A DNA stretch of 64,000 nt from positions 1-64,000 of IMG/VR virus record IMGVR_UViG_3300038299_000353; one strand, given 5' to 3'. Of this stretch, positions 3,209 through 44,593 are shown piece after piece; the stretch's first letter is position 1; every line of letters begins with the position of its first letter. The notes under the pieces were generated by a model, which was not told the origin of the DNA, made no database searches, and saw only the letters and a program-made list of their open reading frames with translations. This DNA comes from a virus. Position numbers and translations under genes: made by a program.

Positions 3209-3236
3209 TTGACAAACCACAAAAACCATACATTAT
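3209..3236 (+). promoter_or_regulatory. Leaderless-type promoter for the gene at 3244
   Basis: TTGACA 3209-3214, 16 bp, CATTAT 3231-3236, 7 nt to ATG 3244. It begins 3 nt after the stop of the previous gene. Confidence 0.75.
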
Positions 3237-3243
3237 AACGACC

Positions 3244-3930
3244 ATGAAACTACTAACTACAAACACAAAACTAGAAAAAGATACCACTTGGCACACGCTA
3301 GGAATTCAGCTTGCGCCTTTTACCCTTGGGGGCTATGGCAATGTTTGCACAAGTGCAAGCCAAGGTTGCAGCGACGCTTGCTTATTTACAGCGGGGCGCG
3401 GTGCAATGCCTAATGTTAAAGATGCGCGTATTGCTCGCACAAAAAAGTTTTTCACTGATAAGAGAGGCTTTATGACGCAACTTTTTGAAGAAGTTGCTAA
3501 AGCTGAAAAAAGCGCCAGTCGAAAAGGTTTGAAACTTGCCATACGTTTAAACGTTCTTTCCGATTTGCCTTGGGAAAAAATTAAACATGAAAGCAAGACA
3601 GTTTTTGAGGCTTTCCCTCAAATCACTTTTTACGATTATACAAAGCATTTTAAACGCGCAATGGCATTTGCCAAGGGTGAAATGCCTAGCAACTATCACT
3701 TGACTTTTTCGCGCAGCGAGTCAAACGAAAACTTGGCTAAAATGATTCTCGAAATCGGTGGAAACGTTGCTTGCGTATTCCGCAATGAGTTGCCAAAAAC
3801 TTGGCAAGGTAAAAAAGTTATTGACGGTGATAAGAGTGATTTGCGATTCTTAGACGATTCAAACGTCGTCGTAGGACTAGCGCAAAAGGGCATGGCTAAA
3901 AAAGACGCAACGGGCTTCGTAATAGGGTAA
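3244..3930 (+). CDS. GP88-like phage protein, 228 aa
   Basis: The N-terminal third has the pattern GGYGNVCTSASQGCSDACLF followed by a Gly-rich stretch and RIARTKKFF. This resembles the phage GP88 family (named from mycobacteriophage gene 88), whose cysteine cluster (C-x7-C-x3-C) is typical. The biochemical function of the family is not known to me. Later segments (LAIRLNVLSDLPWE, NYHLTFSRSESNENL) are also typical. The gene has its own leaderless-type promoter. It is among the largest early genes here and is followed by the phased array, a micro-ORF and the tmRNA-like RNA. Confidence 0.65.
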   Translation: MKLLTTNTKLEKDTTWHTLGIQLAPFTLGGYGNVCTSASQGCSDACLFTAGRGAMPNVKDARIARTKKFFTDKRGFMTQLFEEVAKAEKSASRKGLKLAIRLNVLSDLPWEKIKHESKTVFEAFPQITFYDYTKHFKRAMAFAKGEMPSNYHLTFSRSESNENLAKMILEIGGNVACVFRNELPKTWQGKKVIDGDKSDLRFLDDSNVVVGLAQKGMAKKDATGFVIG

Positions 3931-3998: not shown

Positions 3999-4006
3999 AG
4001 TAAAGG

Positions 4007-4073
4007 GGGGGTGAAAGGGTTTCGATTTAAATTGTTTAATTTAAAGACGGTGGTTCAACTCCACCCACCTCCA
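4007..4073 (+). ncRNA. Minimal tmRNA-like RNA (tRNA-like domain without mRNA-like domain)
   Basis: A 67-nt element folds as follows. The acceptor stem GGGGGTG (4007-4013) pairs with CACCTCC (4066-4072), including a G3-U70 wobble, and A73 follows. A D-loop segment AAAGGGTTTCGA carries the GGTTTCGA box typical of tmRNA 5' ends. An 8-bp hairpin TTTAAATT/AATTTAAA with loop GTTT comes next, then GAC. A perfect 5-bp T-arm GGTGG-TTCAACT-CCACC (4049-4065) completes it. The 3' part resembles bacterial tmRNA ends (GGAC, T-arm with TTCAACT). G3-U70 with A73 is the alanyl-tRNA synthetase signal. There is no room for a tag ORF or pseudoknots. CCA is not encoded, and a T-run follows. No clear promoter was found. 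Confidence 0.7.
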
Positions 4074-7273: not shown

Positions 7274-8077
7274 ATGAAAACAGTAAATGCAAACGAAGCC
7301 CTCGCCCTCGATATCACTGAAACTGCTTTGAACGTAGAGTTTAAAGAGATTCGTATTAATGGCGAGTATTCGGCGACAGTAGGCAATGATCGCTCGATCC
7401 CAACATTTGACAAATTGCTTGCGCCTTTTGTCGATCTCTCAAACGCCATGCAAAGCGAATTCAATCCGTCGATTAAACTAATGCGTTCAAGTCATGGCGC
7501 TGACGGCACGATCTACTCGATCTCGATGCCTTACAAAATGATTAAGCTAGGCGAGCGCGATACAGAATGCCGCATCGTGCGTCATGGCTCTCTAAACTCG
7601 TCTTGCTCTGATCGCTTTGGTTTGCAAATGCTAGTTCAGATTTGCTCTAATGGCATGATGGGCTGGAAGTCTGAAGGTAATGCCGTCACACGCTTCACAG
7701 CGAACTGGCAAGGCATCTCAAAAGGGCGCATCGATCTTGCGCTTGGCTCTTTCGATTCGATGCAAGCGCATTACATGGAATTGGCTAATGATCTCAAAGC
7801 AATCACTTTGACTAGCGAGGGCGTTACTGATCGCTTAAACCGTATAGTTAAAGGCGAGTCGAAACGTGCTGAGAATATTCGCGAAGAGATTCGCGAGCTA
7901 TTCGTTTCGGGCAAAGGCAATCGCGGGCAAAACTCATGGGATTTGTTTAACGCTGTTACCGAATACGAGAATCACTACAAGGTGTATCGCAACACAAATG
8001 GCGTTACAAGCGACGAGAATCGCGCTAAGGGCGTTTTAGCCCTCGATACGGATAAGCTAGCAAGCTTGGTAGCGTAA
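7274..8077 (+). CDS. DUF932-like protein, 267 aa (copy 1)
   Basis: The segment LQMLVQICSNGMMGWKSEG and the later NSWDLFNAVTEYENHYKVYRN resemble the DUF932 family (phage/plasmid-like protein, TIGR03299). Members of this family sit in early regions of phages and plasmids and have no settled biochemical function. The protein has an almost full-length paralog at 9308. The gene is a single-gene unit with its own regulated promoter, a hairpin leader and a terminator at 8096. Codon use is richer in G+C than its neighbours, so recent acquisition or high expression is possible. Confidence 0.7.
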   Translation: MKTVNANEALALDITETALNVEFKEIRINGEYSATVGNDRSIPTFDKLLAPFVDLSNAMQSEFNPSIKLMRSSHGADGTIYSISMPYKMIKLGERDTECRIVRHGSLNSSCSDRFGLQMLVQICSNGMMGWKSEGNAVTRFTANWQGISKGRIDLALGSFDSMQAHYMELANDLKAITLTSEGVTDRLNRIVKGESKRAENIREEIRELFVSGKGNRGQNSWDLFNAVTEYENHYKVYRNTNGVTSDENRAKGVLALDTDKLASLVA

Positions 8078-9307: not shown

Positions 9308-10111
9308 ATGAAAAAAGTAAATGCAGAAGAAGTACTCGCACTCGACATCACTGAACACGCTTTGAACGTAGAGTTTAAAGAAGTTCGTATCAATGGAGAG
9401 TATTCGGCAACGGTTGGAAGTGACCGCGCTGTTCCTACGTTCGAGCAATTGCTTGACCCGTTCGTCAAGTTGTCAAACGGGATGCAAAAAGACTTTAACC
9501 CTACGGTTAATCTTATGCGTTCGAGCCACGGAGCAGAAGGTACGCTCTACAACATATCAATGCCATTCGGAACGGTTGACCTTGGCGGTCGCTCGACTGA
9601 ATGCCGAATCAGTAGGTTCGGGAGTTTGAATAGTTCCTGTTCCGATAAGTTTGGCTTACAAATGCTAGTACAGATTTGTTCCAACGGGATGATGGGATGG
9701 AAAAGTGAAGGAACTGCCGTCACACGCTTCACAGCGAACTGGCAAGGCCTTTCCAACGAACGCATTCAATTCGCTTTGGATGGATTCAGCGGGATGAAAC
9801 AACACTATATCCAGCTGGCCGACGACTTGAAAGCAATTCGTTTGTCTGCTCCCGAAGTTGACAAACGTTTAGAGAGAATCGTAAAAGGTGATTCTAAGCG
9901 TTCGGAAAACATTCGTGAAGAAATTCGCGAATTGTTTGTAAGCGGGAAAGGGAATCGCGGAGAGAATTCGTGGGACTTGTTTAACGCGGTCACGGAGTAT
10001 GAGAATCACTTCAAGTCTTACAGGAATACCAATGGTGTTTCGAGTGACGAAAATCGCGCCAAAGGTGTCTTATCGATTGATACCGATAAGCTGGCCGAAC
10101 TAGTAGCATAA
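9308..10111 (+). CDS. DUF932-like protein, 267 aa (copy 2)
   Basis: Same length as, and strongly similar throughout to, the product of 7274, including ICSNGMMGWKSEG and NSWDLFNAVTEYENH. DNA identity is lower than protein identity, so the duplication is not recent or the copies were acquired separately. Both sit behind a copy of the same regulatory module, which suggests shared control, while their leaders differ. The ATG follows a CA-repeat. Function of the DUF932 family is not established. Confidence 0.7.
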   Translation: MKKVNAEEVLALDITEHALNVEFKEVRINGEYSATVGSDRAVPTFEQLLDPFVKLSNGMQKDFNPTVNLMRSSHGAEGTLYNISMPFGTVDLGGRSTECRISRFGSLNSSCSDKFGLQMLVQICSNGMMGWKSEGTAVTRFTANWQGLSNERIQFALDGFSGMKQHYIQLADDLKAIRLSAPEVDKRLERIVKGDSKRSENIREEIRELFVSGKGNRGENSWDLFNAVTEYENHFKSYRNTNGVSSDENRAKGVLSIDTDKLAELVA

Positions 10112-14045: not shown

Positions 14046-14121
14046 TGGTGGACCCACTGGGACTTGAACCCAGACTCAACGGATTATGAATCCGCTGCTT
14101 TAACCATTAAGCTATGCGTCC
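14046..14121 (-). tRNA. tRNA with anticodon CAU (Met or Ile2)
   Basis: 76 nt including an encoded CCA. D-stem GCTT/AAGC, anticodon stem GCGGA/TCCGT with loop TTCATAA, T-arm CTGGG-TTCAAGT-CCCAG and discriminator A. The acceptor GGACGCA/TGGGTCC has one G-G mismatch at the fifth pair. G1-C72 rules out a normal initiator tRNA. CAU could be elongator Met, or Ile if the C is modified by TilS. Confidence 0.85.
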
Positions 14122-14141
14122 TATTTTGAATGTTTTTAAAT

Positions 14142-14218
14142 TGGTACTCCGAGCAGGACTTGAACCTGCGACCCACGGTTTAGAAAACCGTTGCTCTATC
14201 CAGCTGAGCTATCGGAGC
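14142..14218 (-). tRNA. tRNA-Arg (anticodon UCU)
   Basis: 77 nt with CCA encoded. Acceptor GCTCCGA/TCGGAGT (first pair G-U), D-arm GCTC-AGCTGGATA-GAGC, anticodon loop TTTCTAA, T-arm GCAGG-TTCAAGT-CCTGC. It reads AGA/AGG, which are the dominant arginine codons in the late genes (for example in the tape measure), so it fits phage codon demand. Confidence 0.9.
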
Positions 14219-41575: not shown

Positions 41576-42478
41576 TTGAAAGAAGAGTCGAAGCTTCGTT
41601 CAGCTCTTTCTGACATATTAAAAGGCTTCTCTTATTATAAAGATGAAAATTTTTATATTAAGCATTTGACTCTAGACGACTATGTAGATTTTGAATGTGA
41701 GTATGATTCTTTCTACGAAAATCTCAGGAAAAAGAAGCTACTAAATAATGAAGAGCTTTTAGCTCAAGCAAAGTCCAAGGATTTGTGGTCTAAGCAAGAG
41801 GATTATGAAATTGAAGATTTAGAGCAACTAATAGATCATACTAGGCAAAGCTCTCAGAAGCTTCTTCTTCACTCTCAGAAGAAGATTCAACTAGATTATA
41901 TTGACGAACTTGAGCAAAAATTGTTTATTTTAATTAATAAAAAAAATTCTTTTCTAACCCATTCTTGTGAAAGTATCGCCGACAGGAGATTGAATGAATA
42001 TTATTTATTAAATAGTCTTTTTAAAGATAAACAATTTGAAGAACCTTTGCTTGGCGAAGACGAGAAGCAGGACCCGTCTTTAGATGTGCAAAAATACTTT
42101 AGAATACAGTCGGAATGTCTTAAAAATATTTCTACGGAAAGTATAAAAATGGTATCTACTAAAGAGTTTTTTACTTCTAGTTGGAGAATATGTAATAATG
42201 CTTTTGAGTATTTCGGAAAACCGATTTGCAAGCTATCCTTCCATCAAACTAATTTAGCTAATTACGCGAAAACATTTACAACAATCTTTGAGAGGTATCC
42301 AAATATAAAAAGCGAAGATCCTGACGAAATTATTAGATTAGCAAATTCCAGGTCCAAGCTAGAAGAAGTGTCTGGCGGAAAAGATGTAGATGTGGTTGGC
42401 ATGACGCATGAAGAAGCCGACAAGATGGGTATAAAGATTAAAGACAGATCTAGGCAATTTTCGCAGGATGCAGAATAA
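41576..42478 (+). CDS. Putative tail assembly chaperone partner, 300 aa
   Basis: Starts at TTG 41576, the base after the previous stop, with a perfect AAAAGGAGG (41561-41569) 6 nt upstream. This is the strongest Shine-Dalgarno site in the window. Helical and highly charged (LTLDDYVDFECEYDSFYENL) with C-terminal VVGMTHEEADKMGIKIKDRS. The arrangement of two adjacent genes with no gap resembles a G/GT-type pair, but re-initiation rather than frameshifting seems used. Function inferred from position. Confidence 0.5.
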   Translation: MKEESKLRSALSDILKGFSYYKDENFYIKHLTLDDYVDFECEYDSFYENLRKKKLLNNEELLAQAKSKDLWSKQEDYEIEDLEQLIDHTRQSSQKLLLHSQKKIQLDYIDELEQKLFILINKKNSFLTHSCESIADRRLNEYYLLNSLFKDKQFEEPLLGEDEKQDPSLDVQKYFRIQSECLKNISTESIKMVSTKEFFTSSWRICNNAFEYFGKPICKLSFHQTNLANYAKTFTTIFERYPNIKSEDPDEIIRLANSRSKLEEVSGGKDVDVVGMTHEEADKMGIKIKDRSRQFSQDAE

Positions 42479-42496: not shown

Positions 42497-44593
42497 ATGG
42501 GCTTAAGGGGCATAAACTACATTTATTCTGGAATATTAAAACTAGATACAGGCAACATGCCAGTATACTATGACTTTAATAATTTTAGTGATGAATTTTA
42601 TACTCAGCTAGTCACACAGTCAGGAAGCCCCTTAATTACGCAAGATTCTTCTTTTATAGTATTAGAGGACGTCGATGTTTCAGGATACAATTCTGTAAAC
42701 TTTGCTTCTTTTTTTATTGGGCAAGATATAAATATTTTAAGCTCAAACTCTGCTTCTATAATAGGAAACGTTGATAGCTTTACTGGAAATGGAAATTCTG
42801 GAAATTTTAATTACGGATATTTAGAAATAAATAATCAACAAGATTTATTCTCTAGAGACTTTACCGTACTCTTGTCTCAGGATAAGCGTTATACTGGAGA
42901 TGGAGTTTTATTTTCTTGTTTTGACGACAACGTTATAAAAAGTGGATATTCTTTTGGGATAAATTCTGCAAATAAAATGTATTTTGAATATTTTGATAAT
43001 CAAAATCAAAGATACGATATACAAACTAGCTTGTTGCAGCTATCAGATAAAAACTTAATAGGACTAAGAAAGTTCGATGACTCAATTTACTTTTTAGCTT
43101 ATAATAATAGTACGAAATCTTTTGAGAGTGAAATCAAAAGTGTTATATCTGACGAGATTCTTCCTTGTAACAAATTTTTAATTGGTAGTGGGCAAAATCA
43201 AAAAAGCTATTCTGGCTTTATGGACGATTTTGTATACTTAAATCAAAACATTTCAACTGTAGATGCAAACATACTTGCTTCTGGCTTTTGGTCGGACACT
43301 AAGAGTGGGATTCCTTTCTTGATAGAGTCTGGAATTACTGGAGGAGTTAGTGGCTATGAATATAATTTAACTGGAGTAACTGGCATACTTTCTACAAGCA
43401 GTATTTTGACTGGCACTGGATATACTACTGGTTACTCTGACATTTATCAATATGTTATTGAAACGGGAGTTATAGCATCTGGAGAAGAAAAGATAGAGTT
43501 CTTACAAAACTTACCGCAGTATTGCGTAGGAAACGAAGAAGTTCCAATATATAGAAAGGTTGTTACATTAGATTCAACTGGCGTAATTGGGTTGATTCGT
43601 CAATTCTCTGGAACCGATGAAGTTATCAATGGAACGGATATATATCAAAACGTTAACATCACTGGGTTCTTGTCTAGTGGGTTAAGAGCTACTACTATTT
43701 TCAATACTGGAAACAATGACATTTCTGGACTTAAGAATGTTATGAGTGGCGACAGAAGAAGGCTTTCTGAGTATGGAATGAGCGAAATTACTTATCTTGG
43801 CGAGTATTTTGATCAATCGTTTGGTCAAGAACAGACTGGCATAAATAGCTTCAACTCTTTAGCTTTATATGAAAAAGAAGACGATTATTCTAATGAATTT
43901 AGAAATTTTAATTTCTTAAATAAGACATCTCTTGCAAGCTTAGATGGGACTGGATTTTCAATTAATCAAGAGTATGATGGGTCCGAATTTAGAGTCTCTT
44001 CTAATGGTCTTTTGAGATTTTCAAACTCTACCATAACATCAGCTGGTCTAGAAAATTTTTATAAATCTGGTTCAATAGAACTAGGTAAGGTAATATTAAG
44101 CGGTAATAATACTGGCTCAAAAGTATTTTACGATGCTAATGACTTTGCAGTAAAAAGTGTCTTTAGTGGTAGCAATAATATAAGCGTACACGATAACTTG
44201 TTTTTCAAAAAAGGGTATAAGCTAGCGTCTGGATTGGATTATACTGGAGACGCAATTAACAACTCGTTCACCGCAATAAAAGCATCTGACTCAACTAAAG
44301 AAATTTTAGCTATTGGCTTTAGAGTTCAGAGTGGTCAACACCAGTCTAATGTTATACCATCTTCGGGGAAATTCTTTAGAGACTCCTCTACCAATTATTT
44401 TGGTAGGCTGAGACTGCGCCGTGATCTATATTTAGAGACTAGTGAATCTTCAGACCTAACATCTAATAAAAAGCAGCTTATTCCAAGCGGAGTAAAGTCT
44501 CTATTTGTTAATAGAAATTATCAGAGCGAGCTATCAACTGGATCAGTATATAGATCTTATCTAACTGGAGCCAGTGGATTTTTCGATCTTTAG
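42497..44593 (+). CDS. Tail protein with lectin-like (LamG) domain, 698 aa
   Basis: Residues about 90-260 contain GYLEINNQQDLFSRDFTVLL, GVLFSCFDDNVIKSGYSFGI and SGFMDDFVYLNQNISTVDAN, the usual strands of a LamG/concanavalin-like jelly roll that binds sugars. The rest is beta-rich with SG and TG dipeptides similar to the long fibre at 46782. Likely a receptor-binding or fibre protein. Own late promoter motif. Confidence 0.6.
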   Translation: MGLRGINYIYSGILKLDTGNMPVYYDFNNFSDEFYTQLVTQSGSPLITQDSSFIVLEDVDVSGYNSVNFASFFIGQDINILSSNSASIIGNVDSFTGNGNSGNFNYGYLEINNQQDLFSRDFTVLLSQDKRYTGDGVLFSCFDDNVIKSGYSFGINSANKMYFEYFDNQNQRYDIQTSLLQLSDKNLIGLRKFDDSIYFLAYNNSTKSFESEIKSVISDEILPCNKFLIGSGQNQKSYSGFMDDFVYLNQNISTVDANILASGFWSDTKSGIPFLIESGITGGVSGYEYNLTGVTGILSTSSILTGTGYTTGYSDIYQYVIETGVIASGEEKIEFLQNLPQYCVGNEEVPIYRKVVTLDSTGVIGLIRQFSGTDEVINGTDIYQNVNITGFLSSGLRATTIFNTGNNDISGLKNVMSGDRRRLSEYGMSEITYLGEYFDQSFGQEQTGINSFNSLALYEKEDDYSNEFRNFNFLNKTSLASLDGTGFSINQEYDGSEFRVSSNGLLRFSNSTITSAGLENFYKSGSIELGKVILSGNNTGSKVFYDANDFAVKSVFSGSNNISVHDNLFFKKGYKLASGLDYTGDAINNSFTAIKASDSTKEILAIGFRVQSGQHQSNVIPSSGKFFRDSSTNYFGRLRLRRDLYLETSESSDLTSNKKQLIPSGVKSLFVNRNYQSELSTGSVYRSYLTGASGFFDL

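Follow-up and report, generated by a model that had tools for sequence, protein, structure and literature searches.

The window, the whole 64,000-nt stretch of DNA analysed in this study, is part of an 83,210-bp virus record (G000). In it, a short tmRNA-like element lies in the 198-bp intergenic space between a GP88-family gene and the next ORF (4129), and it is the only tmRNA match in the record. tmRNA is the bacterial RNA that frees stuck ribosomes. The features of the locus are listed in Table 1. The GP88 gene is the probable transcription-unit partner of the element, and both lie behind a putative sigma-70-like promoter. Two equal-length DUF932 genes (PF06067; window 7274-8077 and 9308-10111) in the early region are perhaps a duplication. 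A nucleotide search of a phage database with the window DNA gave no match to any isolate, and the matches of the window terminase were distant (22-28% identity).

Table 1. Features of the mini-tmRNA locus in the window, with the two tmRNA genes of record G001.
Feature	Position	Strand	Basis
Mini-tmRNA (TLD-only tmRNA), tRNA positions 1-73	4007..4073	+	RF00023 57.2 bits; own covariance model R1 62.6 bits, E 1.5e-11
Acceptor stem 5' strand GGGGGTG, G3 = 4009	4007..4013	+	7/7 paired with 4066-4072
D-loop analogue GGTTTCGA, E. coli positions 13-20	4018..4025	+	sequence; contacts from PMC8363625
P2 hairpin, 8 bp, TTTAAATT-GTTT-AATTTAAA, in place of the mRNA-like domain	4026..4045	+	sequence, RNA fold
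GAC; A = E. coli A334 of the SmpB Trp122 pocket	4046..4048	+	PMC8363625
T-arm GGTGG-TTCAACT-CCACC, 5/5 paired	4049..4065	+	sequence
Acceptor stem 3' strand CACCTCC, U70 = 4070	4066..4072	+	sequence
Discriminator A73	4073	+	sequence
Upstream GP88-family gene (PF17338)	3244..3930	+	Pfam 1.4e-47
Candidate sigma-70-like promoter TTGACA-16-CATTAT, ahead of GP88 and element	3209..3236	+	consensus match only
G001 full tmRNA (L217)	88065-88440		
G001 mini-tmRNA	41861-41933		

The sequence-only reading had named the acceptor stem, G3-U70, A73, the D-box, GAC, the T-arm and the 8-bp GTTT hairpin, and all of these are exact in the sequence. The third acceptor pair is G-U, which AlaRS reads in tmRNA, and U17, C18, G19 and A334, which contact SmpB in E. 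coli (PMC8363625), are all found in the element. Thus the features for the proposed alanine charging and SmpB binding are present. Position 15 is U in the element and A in E. coli. Just the 20-nt closed hairpin separates GGTTTCGA and GAC, and no resume codon, tag reading frame or pseudoknot was found. Two additional G residues at 4005-4006 make several 5' ends possible, of which the relatives favour 4007. CCA is absent from the gene, in which TTA follows A73, unlike in the tRNA-Met(CAT) and tRNA-Arg(TCT) genes of the window (14046-14218, minus strand), which encode it.

An Infernal search with the Rfam models, which the sequence-only reading had proposed, gave a match to RF00023 (E = 8.7e-20 over the whole window). 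The score was above the curated gathering cut-off of 47 bits and not at background, and model positions 1-374 were matched in 70 nt with both ends included. RF00023 was the reported best of its clan at the element; one overlapping match to a clan model, which may or may not be that of mitochondrial tmRNA (RF02544), scored lower. The Rfam scan of the window reported no permuted two-piece tmRNA (RF04321), and the 5' and 3' strands are in the standard order. Bare RNA folding gave the same stems (-20.8 kcal/mol, z = -2.2). ARAGORN, also proposed as a check, called neither a tmRNA nor a tRNA at the element. Judged by its sequence, the element is a complete tmRNA tRNA-like domain (TLD) and probably a functional RNA gene, and the earlier description of a TLD without the mRNA-like part agrees with the end-to-end match.

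In the three nearest relatives, L122 to L124, whose GP88 gene is 91-97% identical, the element is kept at the same place; in more distant GP88 carriers it is not. Decay in close relatives was looked for, and L123 and L124 keep an undecayed element, 98.5% and 95.5% identical to that of the window. The neighbouring gene is 93% and the flanks 92% identical in L123, and 84% and 73-74% in L124. The L124 element has a single base change each in the linker and the loop, and one of its stem pairs is G-U instead of A-U. As the element is more conserved than the gene and the flanks and its changes are of these kinds, these results suggest selection on the RNA.

IMG/VR was searched with a pattern that fixed only GGGG..G, GG.TTCGA, GAC and the T-loop and left 12-42 bases free between the second and third of these. 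The standard pattern matched at least 120 stretches, a short-insert scan added 12 (at least 132), and a U4-A69 scan added 30 more, giving at least 162 stretches of a common design; the counts are lower bounds, and the contigs are partly redundant. The patterns dictated the letters of G1-G4, the D-box and the T-loop in all members apart from the window element and the isolates found by BLAST. Acceptors of 7 bp and T-stems of 5 bp, which lay outside the pattern, were present among 60 non-redundant members, and U70 and A73 were each found in 59/60, the exception being one mis-parsed sequence. Short members (61-67 nt) are of the window type, some with GCGA or TTCG loops, and long members (75-82 nt) carry a second hairpin, often CCGCAYGCGG, atop P2. 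The P2 loops of the short form have no codon in common, which led us to reject a resume or stop codon there. ARAGORN called long tmRNAs over L008 and L079; these calls are unsupported, and RF00023 fits an 83-85 nt form. One phage record (G012) contains two mini-tmRNAs (42520-42602 and 109671-109753). Decaying or diverged minis were observed in the Streptomyces phage Alone3 (L228:579-655) and in Riptide (L264:772-848). The D-box is damaged in both and the acceptor stem with G3-U70 is still present; the T-stem is broken in Alone3, and GAC has become GAA in Riptide.

Pairing was examined in two ways. The first five P2 pairs of the 60 non-redundant relatives, read from fixed anchors without structure fitting, were 97% paired, compared with 53% when the partners were shuffled and at most 55% when they were slid. 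Linker length varies among members, and an alignment was made on a subset with given structure. In an alignment of 97 distinct members, which is fitted to model R1, 96.7% of the cells were paired (66.1% when shuffled), with 99.9% in the acceptor and 100% in the T-stem. Two-sided changes occurred at 18 of the 22 pairs, and the covariation score was 0.742 versus 0.164 for shuffled alignments, with none of 500 shuffles as high.

Constraint on single positions was examined using patterns otherwise identical to the standard one, with ambiguity codes verified on the fetched loci. The non-U70, non-A73 and non-A334 patterns each gave no match in IMG/VR, compared with at least 132 matches of the standard pattern, and the non-G19 pattern was found in one contig. 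U70 was also present in 30/30 contigs in which pair 4-69 is U-A, though the pattern allowed C. The Streptomyces phages LuckySocke, GiJojo and BRock, which were found by pattern-free BLAST, kept G3-U70 beside U4-A69. Since U70, A73 and the SmpB contacts are fixed and the surrounding stems are variable, the charging and SmpB positions are held. As judged by these substitution patterns, the results show that the mini-tmRNA is under purifying selection.

The strict pattern gave 4 matches in 257 Gb of bacterial and archaeal genomes. At least 3 of the 4 were on contigs that encode phage proteins or have gene sets resembling those of phages, and the MAGs with these matches have a full tmRNA elsewhere. 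In the collections searched, these distributions show the mini-tmRNA family to be phage-specific. Among 50 carrier viral records, the mini scored above the RF00023 cut-off in 49, no SmpB was found, and a tyrosine integrase match was present in 6 and absent in 44, including G000 (no PF00589). As the examined carriers have no SmpB and few integrases, the minis would be neither decayed genes nor attachment sites. In about eight lineages, the mini follows a head-protease-type gene and precedes the major capsid gene, and another site is between the terminase and portal genes. At the capsid site, a fixed place in the late operon, 78-122 bp separate the minis (L006, L017, L037, L052, L056, L071, L094 and others) from the capsid gene downstream.

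G001 and G048, which are records of the same phage type, carry an intact full tmRNA with the tag ANNIVRFEDFTACGEELALAA plus a mini, and G003 has a second, long tmRNA match. The presence of both forms in one phage type indicates that the minis are not simply decayed copies. The sequence-only reading had stated that the RNA "has lost its mRNA-like domain"; the domain is indeed absent, but its loss is a statement about ancestry, beside which the coexistence of both forms has to be set. Several other phage matches were rejected as minis: that of Phabba is a full tmRNA with a tRNA array, those of PaMx31 and Tunturi_5 are permuted tmRNAs, and that of BeeGee is an attP copy.

In infected cells, phage mini-tmRNAs probably commandeer ribosome rescue or stop it. 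The explanation that we favour, to which we give an even chance, is that an Ala-charged, SmpB-bound mini-tmRNA competes with host tmRNA at stalled ribosomes. Excision of the mini-tmRNA would be by RNase P and 3' tRNA processing, followed by the addition of CCA. Host AlaRS would charge it, and host SmpB and EF-Tu would bind it; SmpB is taken to be that of the host because the examined phages encode none. The Ala-mini-tmRNA/SmpB complex would occupy the empty A site of stalled ribosomes, rivalling host tmRNA. Having no resume codon, the mini would not tag, so that trans-translation would be blocked and nascent chains, phage proteins included, would escape tagging for proteolysis. The decoy role suggested by the sequence-only reading is plausible. 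Competition is our best guess because inhibition is the sole reported effect: according to the accounts in PMC4131195 and PMC11915505, E. coli tmRNA is inhibited by a molecule like that of mycobacteriophage DS6A whether or not this can be charged, and titration of SmpB may be the cause. However, this inhibition needs no alanine charging and thus leaves the strict G3-U70 unexplained. Also against competition, the phage type of G001 and G048 has an intact full tmRNA as well, which is odd for a pure inhibitor, and the mini gene lacks the CCA that the two tRNA genes of the window phage encode.

The need for charging and the coexistence with a full tmRNA are better accommodated if the mini-tmRNA rescues ribosomes without a tag, a less probable explanation that we rate at half the weight of competition. 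Ala-mini-tmRNA with host SmpB would accept the nascent chain and add one or several alanines, and the chain would come free through drop-off or the action of other release factors, so that alanine tailing would replace trans-translation in infection. That G3-U70 and A73 are absolute speaks for a need of charging, and a full tmRNA and a mini in one phage would fit two outputs, which explains their coexistence better than competition does. It has been reported that, in vitro, SmpB and a TLD fragment need no mRNA for polyalanine synthesis (Shimizu and Ueda 2006, as described in PMC3929946), and CDS-less tmRNAs have been retained in mitochondria and some plastids (PMC11915505). However, no release route for the chain is known, and the effect given for the DS6A type in the accounts above is inhibition. 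It is possible, and less than likely, that a widespread Ala-charged, SmpB-dependent mini-tmRNA family actively rewires the rescue of ribosomes in infected cells and ends stalled translation by template-free alanine addition rather than by tagging; if so, it would be a natural RNA-based counterpart of alanine tailing.

A passive sponge, in which the RNA only binds SmpB and charging is dispensable, is improbable. The conserved SmpB-contact bases would agree with it, as would the inhibition by a similar molecule whether chargeable or not (in the account of PMC4131195). However, U70 and A73 of the alanine identity have no exceptions though neighbouring pairs vary freely, and we infer from this strictness a charged molecule on the ribosome. 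Slightly less probable still is that the RNA serves as a decoy, or as a spare substrate, and so occupies host defences that cleave tRNA-like RNAs or their tails. Such defences exist (PMC10264068; PMC12851939), and a tRNA gene lies within 500 bp of the mini in 18/137 cases (~13%), often 1-9 nt away, with some minis in tRNA arrays. However, a conserved target is missing from the variable P2 loop, and a decoy would not require G3-U70 and all of the SmpB-contact bases.

It is very unlikely that the mini is an attachment-site copy or a decayed ssrA, left behind after a phage integrated into a host tmRNA gene or captured one. Copies of the ssrA 3' part do serve for integration in cluster K mycobacteriophages and others (PMC10865867), and the BeeGee match adjoins an integrase. 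However, such attP copies fit the 3' part only or have no RF00023 match, as in BeeGee, while both ends of the mini are retained and covary. Most carrier records, that of the window included, have no tyrosine integrase match, and real decay looks otherwise, as in Alone3. This explanation is already largely refuted, and the earlier claim that the element, with both ends paired, is more than a 3' ssrA attachment fragment holds. That the element resembles tmRNA by chance or is an ordinary tRNA gene, for which only its small size speaks, is refuted by the E-value, the missing anticodon arm, the absence of an ARAGORN tRNA call and the 4 matches in 257 Gb.

The alanine identity and SmpB contacts are fixed in at least 162 viral stretches and the rest covaries, which suggests that phages commonly act against trans-translation or make use of it. 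Common annotation misses the mini form, as ARAGORN does not call it; the gene has either no annotation or a hypothetical protein annotated over it in the cultured Streptomyces phages LuckySocke, GiJojo, BRock and pSt2308. These cultured carriers make mini-tmRNA function directly testable. In the open-licence papers that were covered, the scale and the strict alanine identity of phage mini-tmRNAs appear new.

The mini-tmRNA was compared with known systems. It shares with bacterial tmRNA (RF00023) the acceptor with G3-U70, A73, GG-TTCGA, GAC and the T-arm. It differs in its length (67 nt versus about 350-400) and in having no pseudoknots, resume codon or tag. The mitochondrial tmRNAs of jakobids and oomycetes (RF02544) and the CDS-less plastid tmRNA of Mallomonadaceae (~65 bp) likewise have no tag reading frame. 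However, both are organellar, and the mitochondrial form usually has a permuted gene and an SmpB that is encoded in the nucleus of its own cell (PMC11915505, PMC4131195). In the 2025 tmRNA database, just 9 of 97,179 unique tmRNAs are standard-form and CDS-less, and the text mentions one phage, DS6A (PMC11915505). In the engineered T. thermophilus TLD of crystal structure 2CZJ, a UUCG loop links the 5' 25 nt to the 3' 34 nt (PMC3929946). It is man-made, yet its size and design are nearly those of the short phage form, of which L205:351-413 is a natural 63-nt example with a TTCG loop.

The sequence-only reading knew of no such RNA in a phage. That statement does not stand: the element is no singleton in IMG/VR, and a TLD-only tmRNA is on record for mycobacteriophage DS6A (tmRNA Website 11587; Mao et al. 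2009, as cited in PMC4131195 and PMC11915505). By those citations, DS6A is an existing precedent and the window element is not the first phage case. The integration site of DS6A is a tRNA-Lys gene (PMC10865867), so the TLD of this phage does not serve as its attP. DS6A is a single reported phage case, set beside the window element by description alone. Both are phage tmRNAs with little beyond the TLD and no tag CDS, and the window element, a phage gene with a complete TLD and no CDS, is of the DS6A type as defined in PMC4131195.
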